Below, one piece after another: positions 19,628-63,218 of a stretch of 64,000 bases of DNA. The stretch is from an uncultured Ilumatobacter sp. (lineage in GTDB: Bacteria > Actinomycetota > Acidimicrobiia > Acidimicrobiales > Ilumatobacteraceae), in assembly GCA_905182555.1 (NCBI GenBank), contig CAJJBX010000021.1, positions 1 to 64,000 of the forward strand, given 5' to 3'. Positions within the stretch are counted from its first letter, which is position 1, and the number at the start of each line of letters is the position of its first letter. A model generated the notes under the pieces. The model did no database searches. It was not told the DNA's origin and saw only the letters and a program-made list of their open reading frames with translations. A program made the translations under genes and the position numbers.

Positions 19628-21239
19628 TCAGCCGCGAACGACTTCGCTGCGACGCAAGACGAGGAACCAGGTCAGCGTTGCCGACACTGCGACCAGGACG
19701 AGCGAGGCGGCGCCGGTCTCGGCATAGAAACCTTCTTCGTAAGACGACCAGATCTCTGTGGTCAGCGTTGAGAAGCCGATGGGCGAGAGAAGGAGCGTTG
19801 CAGGGAGCTCTTTGAGCGTCGAGAGCATGACGAGGCCGCCGCCGGCAACCAGGCCAGGGCGCATCAAAGCGAAGTCGACCTGGAAGAAGCGCCGGATCGG
19901 GTTCGATTCGAGTAGCCGACTGGATTCGCGAAGGGCATGCGGGATAGCGCGCACAGCCGACTCGGTACTCGCCAGCGCCTGGCTGCCGAAGTGGATGACA
20001 TAGGCGATGATCAGCAATGCACTGGTTTGGTAGAGCCCCTTAAGTACGGGGGTGTTCAAGGTGAATACGGCAAGGGCGAGAGCAATCACAAGGCCGGGAA
20101 TCGCAAAGCCCACGATCACCGAAACGGCAGCGATGTCGGAACTGCGATGCGGCCGCCGCGTCGTGGCGATTGCAATTGGCATCACGACCGCAACGGCGAG
20201 CACGGCAGCGATGACTGCGACGGTCGCGGTGCTGATGGCGGGCTGCATGAGGTCGTTGATCGACACGCGACCCCCGGCGATACCGCGTTGCGCCCAGGTG
20301 GCAAGGCTCGCGATCGGGATGACAAGGCACAGACACAGGCAGAACGGCGTCGTTCGTTCTACGTCGCACTGACCCGCGCCCGCAATCGCTTGATCCTTGT
20401 CGGGTCCCATACCAACAAGGCCTCAGTGAGCGTAACGGGGCACCTCGAAGTCAGCACAACGGCCTCAAAAAGCACAATGGGTGGCATGTGGCTCGAAGGA
20501 TTACGAAGCTTGTCTCATGAGGCGGGTGCAGAGGAATCGCCTTGGTTGCTGGCGAAGGATTTGGACAGCGCCGAACTCGCTCCTTACGACAAGAGAACCC
20601 TCTCTGTGGACCCCTTTGCTCTGCTTAATGATGCGCAATTAGGAGAACATTCTGTCGCTTCGCTTCGAGGCTGGACCGCAACGCGATGAGCCGGGCCGCG
20701 ACCGGAAGGTAGACGTACGGGTAGGTGAATGCCGTCAGGACAAGCCACGCTGCTCCCAGGCCGCGAAAGCGCCGCGGCGGAGTGATGCCAATGGCAGATA
20801 ATGCGTCGTGGATGATGCCATTGGGTGCGAGGCCAGCAATGAACGCCGCAGCTCCGACGAAGGACGGAAGGACGAGGGGAAGGACCAGAGCAATCCGCCA
20901 GAAGCGTTGCCCTCGAAGATCGGTGCGAGTAACGAGCCAGGCGAGCGCAGTGCCAACGATTGCAGCCGACACCGAGACAAGGACGGACAGTTGCACTGTG
21001 CGCCAGAGGGGTCCAGGTACCTCTTTCGCGACGTTGGCAAGGTCACCGCCGAGCCGAACGGTGCGCCAGACAACGAAGCCGGCGGGGCCGGCAAAACCGG
21101 CACCGATCAGCAGCCCGAGCAAGCGACTCGGGGTGACCCAACTTGAGCGTCTGGCCCCAGAGGTGACGCGACGTTTCGATCGTTCGTCGCTCGGCGCCGC
21201 CTCAGCGACGTCGAGATGGAAGTCGACCACCGGGTCCAA
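19628..21239 (-). pseudogene. fbpB: Iron(III) ABC transporter permease interrupted by a foreign segment
   Basis: FbpB permeases have twelve membrane helices in two similar halves. The N-terminal half is present at 20670-21239 (GPAGFVVWRTVRL, ALAWLVTRTDLRGQ, YVYLPVAARLIALRSSLE). The C-terminal half is at 19628-20335 (LVIPIASLATW, AIPGLVIALALAVF, AIPHALRESSRLLESN, SPIGFSTLTTEIW). The part between, which should encode the EAA-like loop of the first half and following helices, is replaced by about 330 bp of helicase-like sequence on the other strand. As written it makes no functional permease. Either the locus is disrupted or the assembly is chimeric. Confidence 0.8.
20338..20668 (+). pseudogene. 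UvrD/RecB-type helicase C-terminal fragment inside the permease
   Basis: The plus strand reads ERRRSFYVALTRARNRLILV, the motif VI region of superfamily I (UvrD/PcrA/RecB-like) helicases, followed by about 85 residues (HEAGAEESPWLLAKDLD, LSVDPFALLNDAQ) without a stop until permease sequence resumes. No other part of a helicase gene is present. Base composition appears less GC-rich than the flanks (for example GGAGAACATTCTG near the right end), suggesting a different source genome. Both ends fall within permease coding sequence. Confidence 0.7.
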
Positions 21240-27455: not shown

Positions 27456-27957
27456 CGGGGAACGTGAGCTGCCCGTTGTTGCCCATGCCAGGCTCGGTGC
27501 CACCAAACACAAAAGCAAGCGTAAGAGGCAAGAGATTTAGTGCCAGCGCCGGGGTCGTTACTGGTAACAGTGAGCTGTCCGATCGAGGGGTTCGACCGGT
27601 TCTTGGTGAAGTGCGGCGTGATTGCGGACACGGCAAAAACACCGAACTTTGCTGATGCCGTCAGCTTCTTCTTTCCTCGCGATCCGGGGGCGTTCGCTCA
27701 ACTGAACAGCGAGGCCAACGGGTTCCTCAGCGGGGGTTCTACAAGGTGGAATGGTTTTTCGTCGTGCCGGCAGGCGCATCAGCACCCTGGCAGTGTGCCT
27801 TCACCGTGGCGATCACCAAGGGTGGTGTCGAAGCCAACGAGACAGCAGTGGTCCCCGGGGTTCTGGCAGTGGTAGTTGCACCGTTTCGTACCCCTCTGCA
27901 GGATCCGAGACATTGATTCGTGCTGTGTCGCTGACTGACGGCGGGGTGCAAATGTAA
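27456..27957 (+). CDS. Possible secreted or surface protein, at least two frameshifts
   Basis: No family recognised. From 27540 one frame reads VTVSCPIEGFDRFLVKCGV and FPRDPGAFAQLNSEANGFLSG. A G run at 27732-27736 is one base short; correcting it continues FYKVEWFFVVPAGASAPWQC. A second G run at 27857-27860, also one short, leads to GSGSGSCTVSYPSAGSETL and ends DGGVQM at 27957. The joins at two G runs suggest a real gene with sequence errors. Paired cysteines and Gly/Ser/Thr-rich composition suggest export. The true start is not clear; the frame open upstream of 27540 (NVSCPLLPMPGS) may belong to it. Confidence 0.45.
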
Positions 27958-28220
27958 ACCGGGAATTTCCAACCCGACTCAGTGTTCTCGTCAGTGCTCT
28001 GGAAGTCACCGTCCGTGGACGGGCCGGGGCTCATTTCGTGCCGGCACGTTCACAGACGAATCAACGGGTGGGCGTAAGGGCGGCTTTCGATGCTCGTCCG
28101 GCACGTTGCTGGCGACTGCCAGCCAGAGCGCGATCGTGAGGCTGTCGAAGACCTGACCAGCACGCCCACCGCGTGTTGCGATACCGGTCGGCATCGGGCT
28201 GACTCGCTACGGTCGGCTGC
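27958..28220. other. Intergenic, no gene seen
   Basis: Between the frameshifted hypothetical gene and the LLM gene. Short open frames here show no recognisable protein features. It presumably holds the promoter of the LLM gene at 28221, but I see no clear -35/-10 pair. Confidence 0.5.
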
Positions 28221-56950: not shown

Positions 56951-58041
56951 ATGGTCACGCTTGTTGATGCCGCACACGATCTCATTGAACTCATCGAGGC
57001 GCATGCCGATCTTGCGGAACGCAACCGGCGTTTGCCGGGCGAGACCGTCAAGGCGTTGACCGATGCGAATTTGATGCGGATGTGTGTCCCGGCGCAATAC
57101 GGCGGCCCGGAGGCGGACCCGCTCACGCTTCTGGAAGCAATCGCCACACTCGCTTTCGCCGACGGCGCAGCCGGGTGGTGCGCGATGATCGCCTCTACCA
57201 CGTCGTCGATGGCAGCGTTTCTGCCCTCGAGCGCCGCACAGCAGATCTATGGAGACCCGCAGGTGGTCACCGGCGGCGGCGACAAGGATGTCAAGGTTTG
57301 GGGATACGACGAGGGCGCGTGCTTCCACGTCGGAAAGGGCCACAGCGGCGCCATCGCTAAGGTCAAGTTTTCGCCCGACGGCCAGAAGATCGTCACCGTC
57401 GGCTCCGGCAAAGCGACGTCACCCTCCACGACACCTGGCACACCTCTGGGATGCGCGGATCGGGTTCGCTCGACTTTTCGGTTGAAGCAGCGTTCGCTCC
57501 AGCCGAATTTACCATGCAGCCCGGCGTCACTCACCCAGCGGTCGACACGCCTCTCGCACGCTTCCCGAACTTCGCACTCCTCGCGGCGGCCGTGAGCGCG
57601 GTCGGCCTCGGTATCGCGCGGCGCAAGCGCTCGACTAAGTGTTCGTTACATGCACAGGTAACGAAGAGGCCGCCCTGGCTCAACTAGCCGACATCGCAGC
57701 AAATGGAAGCTTAGCTGAAGTCGCCCGCGCCGAAGCCGCCTATCACCTTGCTGTGGAAGCCGATGTTGCCGATCGCAGCCGTTCTTGCCGGCGACGGCGC
57801 CACAATCGAGCAGCGCACCTGCATCCGGCTCGCCGCCACGAACGCGGCGGCCGTCGGCGCTGAAGTCACCGACACCGCCTTTACCTTGGCCGGCGGTACT
57901 GCTGTCTATGACACCAGCCTGCTCGGCCGGTGCCTGCGCGACGCCCACGTTGTTACCCAGCACATCCAGACCGCACCCAAGCTGAACGAGAAGATCGGCC
58001 AGCTTCTGCTCGGCCAGGACACCGATACTTCAATGTTCTGA
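56951..58041 (+). pseudogene. Acyl-CoA dehydrogenase-like gene with a foreign WD40 segment and frame breaks
   Basis: The N-terminal ACAD domain (NRRLPGETVKALTDANLMRM, GGPEADPLTLLEAIATLAFA, GWCAMIASTTSSMAAFLP) runs to QVVTGG at about 57277. ACAD sequence resumes near 57412 as VTLHDTWHTSGMRGSGSLDF, HPAVDTPLARFPNFALLAAA and, after frame breaks around 57620-57770, TIEQRTCIRLAATNA, TLAGGTAVYDTS and LRDAHVVTQHIQTAP. The stretch between is a WD40 repeat, listed separately. The closest ACAD types are HsaA/DszC-like or FadE-like proteins. As written no working enzyme is made. Confidence 0.78.
57266..57412 (+). other. WD40 fragment resembling eukaryotic CFAP52, inside the acyl-CoA dehydrogenase
   Basis: In frame with the ACAD start, the protein reads GGGDKDVKVWGYDEGACFHV, then GKGHSGAIAKVKFSPDGQKI and VTVGSG. 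This is a WD40 blade; KVWGYDEG..HVG.GHSG..KVK and VT.GGGDK match what I know of the C-terminal blades of the ciliary protein CFAP52 (WDR16). The left edge falls on GTCACCGGCGGC (57266-57277), coding VTGG, which both ACAD and CFAP52 proteins contain. The right edge is near 57400-57412, where the WD40 stops mid-blade. No other ciliary sequence is nearby. Confidence 0.6.
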
Positions 58042-58069: not shown

Positions 58070-58328
58070 CGTCGGCCCTGCGACTGGCCTCGCAGATTCA
58101 GAAGTCTTCGGGCTGGCGCCTGAATTCGCGTCGTTCCTGCGCTGCTCCTGCCACTTGAGCAGTGCAAACTCGTCGTAGCGCTTGCCGAGGATCTGGTCGG
58201 CGTCGGCGAGGTCGCCCGCTTACTCGGAGATGACGCGGTCTGCAACGAAGCCTGGGTGAGCCGGATCGTTGATGACGGCGTTGATGACCGATCCGACGTC
58301 GTTGACGCCGGTCGCACCGAGCAACGTG
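58070..58328 (-). pseudogene. Unidentified coding remnant downstream of the 8-bp repeat
   Basis: On the minus strand, reading away from the repeat, one frame gives LLGATGVNDVGSVINAVIND and PAHPGFVADRVISE, a TAA, and then GDLADADQILGKRYDEF and LLKWQEQRRNDANSG. It looks like real protein sequence with a premature stop, perhaps the end of a larger gene. I do not recognise the family. The part upstream is the 8-bp repeat and an ATG at 58524 in another frame, MDDGMPPKRPTRTPDDELAG, which would join this frame if one 8-bp unit were removed. Confidence 0.35.
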
Positions 58329-58456
58329 TGCCGATGTGCCGATGTGCCGATGTGCCGATGTGCCGATGTGCCGATGTGCCGATGTGCCGATGTGCCGATG
58401 TGCCGATGTGCCGATGTGCCGATGTGCCGATGTGCCGATGTGCCGATGTGCCGATG
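58329..58456. repeat. Sixteen perfect tandem copies of an 8-bp unit
   Basis: TGCCGATG repeated sixteen times without error, 128 bp. Because 8 is not a multiple of three, gain or loss of a unit shifts any frame reading through it. All six frames are open across it, giving octapeptide repeats such as PMCRCADV (plus) or TSAHRHIG (minus). It lies upstream of the enoyl-CoA hydratase ATG (58650) and downstream of the ACAD remnant. Confidence 0.98.
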
Positions 58457-58530
58457 CCGAGTTCGCCAGCAAGTTCATCGTCCGGAGTTCTCGTTGGGCG
58501 CTTCGGCGGCATGCCATCGTCCATGCCATG

Positions 58531-58578
58531 TCACCATGCCATTCACCATGCCATTCACCATGCCATTCACCATGCCAT
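58531..58578. repeat. Four tandem copies of a 12-bp unit
   Basis: TCACCATGCCAT repeated four times, with a partial flanking copy (CCATGCCATG) on the left and TCAC on the right. It lies 72 bp before the enoyl-CoA hydratase ATG. The unit is a multiple of three. Together with the 8-bp array it fills most of the 608-bp gap between the ACAD stop and the hydratase start, in which I find no other intact gene. Confidence 0.95.
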
Positions 58579-58649
58579 TCACGGCGCCGGCAAAAAGGAG
58601 CAGGAGCCCGGTGGGAACGCAACGGCGCAGCTCGCGTACCTTCCCGTGC

Positions 58650-59579: not shown

Positions 59580-61165
59580 ATGAGTGCCATCGCGAACGTC
59601 GCCGGAATCGTCCGAACACACGGTGTGGGGAGGCCCGAGCACACCGCCCTGATCGAAGGGCAACGGCGTCTGTCCTGGGCCGACGTGTATGAGCGTGCGC
59701 AACGAACTTCTCAGGCGCTCGCGTCGGTCGGCGTTGGTGCTGAAGACCGTGTGGCATTCCTCGATAAAAACGGCATCGAACACTTCGATGTGTTCTTTGG
59801 TGCGTCGCTCCTCAACGCCGTTGCAGTCGACGTCAACTGGCGCCTTGCTCCGCCGGAAGTTGCCTTCATCGTCAACGACGCGGAAGCCAAGGTGCTTGTT
59901 GCCGGGCTTGATTTCGTACCGATCCTCGATGCCATCAAGGATGAGCTGACGTCGACGACGAAGATTCTGGTCATCGGTGGGGTCGGTGAGGCCAATGGGG
60001 GCTACGACGACTTCGAAACATGGATCAACGGTTTTGATGCTCAAGACCCCGGCGTCGAAGCCGTCGGCGGCGACGTCGCATTCCAGCTGTACTCGTCGGG
60101 CACGACCGGCCGTCCCAAGGGCGTCATGCTCTCCAACGACAACTTCTTCAGCTTGCTCCCGATGGCCAAGGAGATCTGGGAGCTTTCCGGCGATGCGGTC
60201 AACCTCGCAGCGATGCCGCTCTTCCACATCGGTGGCGGAGGCTGGGCAACGGCAGGCATGTATGAGGGTTGCACGACGGTGATCCTGCGCGAGCTCGACC
60301 CGGCTGGTCTGATCGACCTGATTCAGAACGAGAAGGTCACCCACGGTTTCGTCGTGCCAGCAGTGCTGCAGTTCATGCTGATGATGCCGAACATGGAGGG
60401 TGCTGATTTCTCCAGCTTGAAGATCCTTGTCTACGGAGCGTCACCGATCAGCGAAGAAGTGCTGGCGGCCTGCGTCGAGAAGTTCAAGCCGTGAAACCGT
60501 GCTGGCCTATGGGCTGACCGAAACTACTTTTACACACGACAATCCTGCCCCCCGAAGACCACGACCCGAATGGGCCGAACAAGCATCGCCTCCGGTCGTG
60601 TGGTGTTGCCGGCCCAGGGGTCGAGGTGCGCATGGTCGGCGACGGCGGCGAAGACGTTGAGGTCGGTGAGGTCGGCGAGATCTGGGTGCGCACACCGCAG
60701 AACATGCTGGGTTACTGGAAGATGCCGGAAGAAACAGCCAAGGCGCTCACCGACGACGGCTGGTTCAAGTCAGGCGACGCCGGGTACCTCGACGCCGACG
60801 GCTATCTCTATATCCACGACCGCGTCAAAGACATGATTGTCTCGGGTGGCGAGAACGTGTACCCGGCAGAAGTCGAGAATGTGCTGATGAAGCACGAGGC
60901 CATTGCTGACGTCGCGGTCATCGGCGTGCCGCATGAGAAGTGGGGCGAAACTGGCAAGGCTGTCGTGGTCGCAGCCGAGGGTGCCACGGCCGACGACGCC
61001 ACGGCTGCTTCGATCATCGCCTTCGCCAAAACACAGCTCGCCGGGTTCAAGTGCCCGACGACCGTCGACTGGGTGACCGAACTCCCACGCAACCCCACGG
61101 GCAAGATCTTAAAGAAAGACCTGCGCGAGCCGTATTGGGTTGGGCGTGAAAGGCGCGTGGGCTGA
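59580..61165 (+). CDS. Acyl-CoA synthetase, two frameshifts
   Basis: AMP-forming ligase of about 527 residues. The first part (RRLSWADVYERAQRTSQALA, LYSSGTTGRPKGVMLSND, MPLFHIGGGGWATAG) is open to 60494. One extra base there restores KPETVLAYGLTETT. A second shift near 60535 leads to TILPPEDHDPNGPNKHRLR and the intact C-terminus: PQNMLGYWKMPEETAKAL, FKSGDAGYLDADGYLYI, MIVSGGENVYPAEVENVL and PTGKILKKDLREPYW. Probably a real, working gene with sequence errors. Substrate unknown. It follows the hydratase gene, suggesting a beta-oxidation group. Confidence 0.85.
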
Positions 61166-61295: not shown

Positions 61296-63218
61296 GTGTC
61301 TTCTACCGAAACAACCCAGACGCTCGCAGACGGACTGTCTTTGCGAACTGACATCCGCAACCTCGCGATCGTCGCTCACGTCGATCATGGCAAGACCACG
61401 CTGGTCGACGCCATGCTCCAGCAGTCGGGTGCTTTCAGCGCTCACGAAGAAGTCGTCGAGCGGGTCATGGACTCGGGCGACCTCGAACGAGAAAAGGGCA
61501 TTACGATTCTCGCCAAGAACACGTCCCTTGTCTGGGACGACAAAGCGAGTGGGGAGGGCATCGTATCAACATCGTCGATACGCCCGGTCACGCCGACTTC
61601 GGTGGCGAAGTGGAACGTATACTGTCAATGGTCGATTCTGTTTTGTTGGTTGTTGATGCCGTTGATGGGCCTATGCCGCAAACACGTTTTGTGCTGCGTA
61701 AGGCGCTTGCTCGGAACCTGCCGGTGATCCTCGCCATCAACAAGATTGACCGAGCCGACGCGCGCACCGCCGAAGTTGTCGACGAGGAACTGGTCCGATG
61801 ATGCCCGTGAAGACCAGGTCGAGTTTCCAATCGTCTACTGCTCGGGCCGCGACGGCTGGGCAACGCTCGACCTCGACGAGGCGCAGGCCATTGTCAAGGG
61901 CGACGTGACCGGCAAAGACCTGACGGCGTTCGTCGATGTCATTCTGGAGAGCATTCCCGCACCGACCTACACCGAGGGTGCACCACTGCAGGCATGGGTC
62001 ACCAACCTCGATTCCTCGCCGTACCTGGGACGCATGGCGTTGCTCCGCATTATGGAAGGCGAGATCAAGAAGGGTCAGCAGGTTGCCTGGTGCAAGGTTG
62101 ACGGCACGATTGCCCGAGCCAAGATCTCCGAGTTGTTCCTCACAGAGCACCTCACTCGCGTGCCGGTTGAGTCAGCTCGCCAGGGCGACCTCGCAGCCAT
62201 CGCCGGGATCGAAGACATCTTCATCGGCGAGACATTGGCCGACATCGATAATCCAATCGCATTGCCGCTGATCACCGTCGACGAGCCGGCACTGTCGATG
62301 ACCATTGGCATCAACACCTCACCGCTCGCGGGCCGCGAGGGTAAGAAGCTCACTGCCCGCTTAGTCAAAGCCCGCCTCGACCAAGAACTCGTCGGCAACG
62401 TATCGATCCGCGTTCTCCCGACAGTGCGTCCCGACGCCTGGGAAGTTCAGGCCCGTGGCGAACTGCAGTTGGCGATCCTCGTTGAGACTATGCGTCGCGA
62501 AGGTTTCGAGCTGACCGTTGGCAAGCCGATTGTGTTGACCAAAGAAGTCGACGGCAAGCTCCACGAGCCGGTCGAGCGTGTCACCATTGACGTTCCCGAC
62601 GAGTACCTCGGCGCCGTCACGCAGTTGCTGGCCACCCGCAAGGGTCGAATGCAGAACATGGGCGGCAGCGGCTGGGTTCGCCTCGACTATCTCGTGCCGG
62701 CCCGAGGCCTCATTGGTTTCCGCACACAGTTCATGACTGAAACCCGCGGTACCGGCATCATCAGCCACATTTTCGAAGGCTACGAACTGTGGGCTGGCGA
62801 GATCCGTGCTCGTGCGCAGGGCGTGCTGGTCAGTGACCGTATGGGTCCCGTGACGAACTACGCCATGATTAACCTGCAGGATCGTTCGGCCATGATGGTC
62901 AAGGCTGGCGACGACGTCTATGAGGGCATGATCATTGGCGAGAACTCCCGCGCCGGCGACATGGACGTCAACATCTGCCGTGAGAAGAAGCAGACCAACG
63001 TGCGTGCGTCGTCGTCCGACGACACTGTGAAGGTCACGCCGCCAAAGCTGCTGTCGCTTGAAGGCGCACTCGAATTCATCAGCGTCGATGAATGTGTCGA
63101 AGTGACCCCGCAAAACATTCGAATCCGCAAGGTCGAGCTTGACCCCACGATTCGCGCCCGCCACACCAAGAAGGTCAACAACGAGCTGAAGGCCGAGGAC
63201 GAAGCCCGTAAGGGCTGA
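61296..63218 (+). CDS. typA: TypA/BipA ribosome-associated GTPase, frame disrupted
   Basis: Translational GTPase of the EF-G superfamily, about 640 residues. It shows Walker [16 protein letters not shown], switch [15 protein letters not shown] (after repair), [11 protein letters not shown], and long intact domains III-V ([57 protein letters not shown]). One missing base near 61561 breaks [13 protein letters not shown]. Around 61790-61815 the family's loop after VVDE is about 11 nt short and shifts frame. Because TypA is normally conserved and the rest is perfect, error is more likely than decay. Confidence 0.88.

Follow-up and report, generated by a model that had tools for sequence, protein, structure and literature searches.

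What does it mean that an acyl-CoA dehydrogenase (ACAD) gene of a bacterium reads without a stop into a piece resembling the ciliary protein CFAP52? The gene in question occupies positions 56951 to 58041 of the stretch analyzed here (the window), which comprises the first 64,000 bases of contig C21 in the draft genome of an uncultured Ilumatobacter sp. (2.56 Mb in 26 contigs, 72.7% complete). The original prediction had described an in-frame fusion and had offered two explanations, either assembly by overlap at a word shared by both families or a recent eukaryote-to-bacterium transfer. Combining the comparison with intact orthologues, the identity of the inserted piece and the state of the remaining genome, we suggest that the CFAP52-like stretch is an assembly artefact, that the true gene is an ordinary ACAD gene and that the sample held a ciliated eukaryote; we give this reading a probability of about 92%. 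The observation of a CFAP52-like segment in ACAD is thereby partly confirmed, and its earlier interpretation is, overall, partly supported.

The gene is composed of the following parts:

56951..57276, forward strand: N-terminal part of ACAD (Pfam PF02771; match to the same-genus genome G004; blastn against L004, the G004 locus).
57263..57276, forward strand: left junction, coding VVTGG, identical in the intact G004 ACAD and compatible with CFAP52.
57277..57407, forward strand: 131-bp foreign patch coding a WD40 blade that resembles the C-terminal blade of CFAP52, in place of 162 bp of ACAD.
57408..57627, forward strand: ACAD again, in a different frame (blastn against L004; reading frames).
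57628..57785, forward strand: poorly aligned ACAD stretch that breaks the frame and in which a few words still equal those of G004.
57786..58041, forward strand: C-terminal end of ACAD (Pfam PF08028 at 57748-58038; blastn against L004).

In G004 the ACAD gene is whole, as a frame of 479 aa. Over its first 109 residues the window gene is 95% identical to this copy, and at the DNA level the two match at 90% up to 57276 and at 85% from 57408 onward, the 131 bp between these points occupying the place of 162 bp in G004. The foreign extent proposed originally, 57266..57412, is corrected to 57277-57407. A match to ACAD was found in 42 of 60 genomes, the genome under study included, and we examined as orthologues the 17 best-scoring of the 29 loci from other genomes (L004-L020). 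The N- and C-terminal parts of the window gene match these orthologues from the same genus or family; unlike all 17, it lacks 54 middle residues and has lost the frame. Within the missing stretch lie the words APNG and WGSG, which are kept in 17/17 orthologues and are absent from all three forward frames of the window gene. In total, both Pfam domains of the family are present, on separate pieces, and no uninterrupted frame with the conserved words joins them. The gene is broken a second time at about 57628-57785, where 13 gap openings separate it from G004; the longest frame of this stretch has no Pfam or PDB match, and no other copy of the stretch exists in the same genome.

At the left edge of the patch, PF02771 reads into the WD40 blade PF00400 without a stop, as had been claimed, and the open frame, of 395 aa, continues past the patch to a stop at 57595. 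The ACAD phase, however, is 2 at 57277 and 1 at 57408. Given that ACAD resumes in another frame after the patch, the fusion is in frame at its left edge only, and that part of the claim stands while the right edge contradicts it. The proposal that both families share VTGG at the left junction is borne out: the intact G004 ACAD reads QVVTGGVFAPNG at this point, so that the word coding VVTGG is common to both sequences, and a 48-residue query matches CFAP52 chain 9e78_0L from its second residue onward, which is the V of VTGG. At the right edge merely the short word GCAAAG adjoins.

The patch itself is a WD40 blade by its match to Pfam PF00400 (E 1.3e-6; 29.2 bits against a cut-off of 27). A 27-residue query against PDB matched 91 distinct sequences at E up to 1, and among the 60 of these that were listed the only ones with a single stretch passing E 1 by itself were eight distinct CFAP52/FAP52 sequences. 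Each of the eight is matched at residues 558-601, close to the C-terminal end of a chain that is about 620-656 residues long. The patch and Chlamydomonas FAP52 agree at 13 of 20 aligned positions, for a BLOSUM62 sum of 70, and have the words YDEG and HSGAI in common. Among bacterial WD40 proteins, by comparison, the best ungapped stretch of 20 residues sums to 39 and the ten best stretches have at most 9 identities; these came from 15 loci found in a scan (genome_contigs) that depends on short peptide words and may miss relatives. The eukaryote-like, CFAP52-type identity proposed for the segment is upheld by this comparison of eukaryotic with bacterial proteins and by the 27-residue query. With 22 residues as query, 14 PDB sequences were matched at E up to 10, the passing stretches being those of CFAP52 and of a penaeidin; with 21 residues there were 87 matches, and among the 60 of them listed one DAW1 entry passes beside those of CFAP52. 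Judged on 20-27 residues, the blade therefore resembles CFAP52 more closely than it does other WD40 proteins, a closeness that the whole-sequence scores of the 48-residue query do not bear out. In contrast to CFAP52, a protein of some 620 residues or more, the patch has about 44 residues in its 131 bp, with no further blade and neither start nor end, and no further match to the protein was found in the genome. From these sequence comparisons we suggest that the patch probably derives from a CFAP52 gene.

Several places were searched for a source. The patch is present as a single copy in its own genome, where contig C2 has a 26-base match that covers the start of the query only; no source elsewhere in this genome was found. 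Among 199 other genomes of the family no match exceeds 39 bases, seven having 25-39 bases of the query and the rest none. As to a bacterial source of the WD40 piece, the best of the 15 loci reaches 48% and is weaker than FAP52 over the 20 residues compared. Thirty-two viral stretches fit a pattern, none of which codes a relative, and plasmid sequences gave no DNA match.

The patch is not an isolated defect, the genome being damaged elsewhere as well. The strongest point for a faulty assembly is rpoB, which lies outside the window. At C5:72089-75505 the rpoB search gives 13 matches, some overlapping and four with stops, none of which exceeds the cut-off, and in the surrounding locus (L103, C5:71500-76500) rpoB is spread over three frames and contains stops and numerous small indels. 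The 1210-aa rpoB product of genome G008 likewise falls into three frames here and into one frame on each of two contigs in G004. Its alignments with G004, of 1487, 2786 and 388 columns, contain 14, 35 and 7 gap openings, respectively (56 over 4661 in total), and at one place the alignment is very poor for about 100 columns. An rpoB match over the cut-off was obtained in 8 of the 13 genomes searched; G001, G002, G003 and G036, which are assemblies of 190-510 contigs, have a partial match or none. Since a cell could hardly live with rpoB as written, the assembly must be wrong at places beyond the patch.

Of the 64 kb of the window, about 47 kb align with G004 contigs, the order being conserved on every contig, and these alignments reveal the following further defects:

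58153..58330, reverse strand: remnant in which a DUF1800 piece borders on the end of a DUF1501 gene (families assigned by Pfam from the G004 pieces).
58327..58582, no strand: tandem arrays of the 8-mer TGTGCCGA (16.2 copies) and the 12-mer CATGCCATTCAC (6.0 copies), where G004 has 626 bp of mostly DUF1800 coding DNA.
60492..60545, forward strand: frameshifts in an AMP-binding gene that is a single open frame in G004.
61563..61800, forward strand: frameshifts in typA/bipA (family cut-off search).
20327..20662, no strand: another foreign coding patch, resembling a helicase, in a gene whose G004 counterpart is a single frame of 550 aa.

The second broken ACAD stretch, the collapse of DUF1501 and DUF1800 and the frameshifts in the AMP-binding and typA genes all lie within 4.5 kb of the CFAP52-like patch. 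The DUF1501 and DUF1800 frames are longer in G004 and lie where two of its contigs end, so that their order there is inferred. For typA, a match over the cut-off was obtained in 11 of the 13 genomes searched, the exceptions being the genome under study and G007, which has pieces on two contigs. The helicase-like patch replaces coding DNA, although a short word in its middle still resembles G004; it matches UvrD_C at E 5.5e-5 with 23.2 bits, below the Pfam cut-off of 25.6. The search for its source covered its own genome, where the best match is 44% over 32 residues (E 0.1), and PDB, where there is none; other collections were not searched. Together with the broken rpoB, these patches and frameshifts of the same kind support the proposal of an assembly by overlap and speak against a recent transfer from a eukaryote to a bacterium, all the more as one of the patches is helicase-like in source.

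We envisage that the faulty join could have arisen as follows: (i) part of ACAD would have been left unresolved in the draft, as a hole of about 162 bp judged by G004, (ii) DNA from a ciliated eukaryote in the same sample would have been used to bridge this hole, and (iii) the switch to eukaryotic sequence would have taken place at the shared word coding VVTGG and the switch back near the word GCAAAG. The faulty step may have been gap filling, hybrid correction or the consensus of a low-coverage region; a literature search on gap-filling chimeras found no papers. If the patch arose in this way, a eukaryote-to-bacterium fusion can look convincing in a draft genome, down to an open frame and a junction at a shared word, and yet most likely stem from patching, and broken rpoB and typA genes in the same genome would serve as a quick warning sign for such cases.

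A number of points weigh against an assembly artefact built from a eukaryotic piece. The CFAP52-like stretch is clean throughout its 131 bp, with an open frame, and must therefore be the real sequence of something, while no donor was found in PDB, in the own and family genomes or among the bacterial, viral and plasmid sequences searched. With the 48-residue query, WDR5, FBXW7, DAW1 and others outrank CFAP52 by whole-sequence score and have passing stretches as well; they come first because their many repeats are summed. Among the 18 Pfam families listed, other propellers are named and none bears the name of CFAP52, and the best bacterial locus reaches 48% over 48 residues, a length to be set against the 20 residues on which CFAP52 was compared. 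A further objection comes from a control in which frames of at least 200 residues were compared in both directions between the window and G004. Stops and frame changes flagged 15 of 48 G004 frames in the window and 12 of 43 window frames in G004, and with counts so similar both ways there is no proof that the genome under study is worse than G004. The raw counts alone prove nothing, because shadow frames and frames at contig ends are included: three of the 12 flagged window frames span two G004 contigs, two are the window's own chimeric frames and seven are others. Counting only frames that are split into several, 5 of 48 G004 frames are affected in the window versus 3 of 43 window frames within one G004 contig, and two of these three are again the chimeric frames. 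ACAD is itself outside the 48 frames because its mean identity lies under the filter. The general count being no proof on its own, the argument depends on the named genes and on rpoB. Moreover, G004 is itself a draft, in about 450 contigs, and natural divergence (about 10%) accounts for some of its difference from the window.

Alternatively, the substitution could have happened in nature: the bacterium would have taken up eukaryotic DNA and, through illegitimate recombination between short words common to both sequences, received 131 bp of CFAP52 in place of 162 bp of ACAD, leaving a pseudogene. In short patch double illegitimate recombination (SPDIR), a short heterologous segment reportedly replaces the resident one between colinear flanks, and the locus has this likeness: a short foreign segment stands in place of a resident one, the flanks are colinear and a short word is shared at the left edge. 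The mechanism is in print; PMC7192050 names it, citing Harms et al. 2016, and holds short-patch substitution to be rare. Were this account correct, a living bacterium would have gained the CFAP52 piece by double illegitimate recombination, the other assembly damage would be independent of it, and the locus would illustrate how short-patch substitution can bring in eukaryotic DNA in nature. We regard such an exchange by SPDIR as very unlikely here. Unlike an SPDIR event, the patch does not stand alone in an otherwise sound genome and is known from the assembly alone; similar damage affects other parts of the window as well as rpoB, a gene that a living cell cannot do without, and the second patch has a different source. 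That a genuine gain by the bacterium coincided with unrelated damage of this kind is, in our view, highly improbable.

A bacterial WD40 protein as the origin of the patch, the join still being an assembly error or a recombination, is also very improbable. WD40 repeats are common in bacteria and the 15 bacterial loci match the 48 residues at 33-48% identity, and both the shortness of the comparison and the word-based scan leave some room for a closer bacterial relative. The values of FAP52 (13/20 identities and a sum of 70, versus at most 9 and 39 in the ten best stretches of these loci) nevertheless argue for CFAP52, as do the isolated passing stretches that, among the listed matches to the 27-residue query, were confined to its entries. 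Finally, a functional fused protein, an ACAD bearing WD40, has a negligible chance of being correct despite the in-frame left edge inside one open frame, as the conserved middle of ACAD is lost, the right edge is out of frame and followed by a second broken stretch, and one WD40 blade does not form a propeller.

Two minor observations concern the comparison with G004. Downstream of ACAD, the G004 contig C247 carries a short stretch present three times (L083, about 760-990), and the contig ends about 760 bp beyond this triplicated stretch, inside the DUF1501 gene. Elsewhere, at 27459-28156, the window has 698 bp versus 111 bp in G004.
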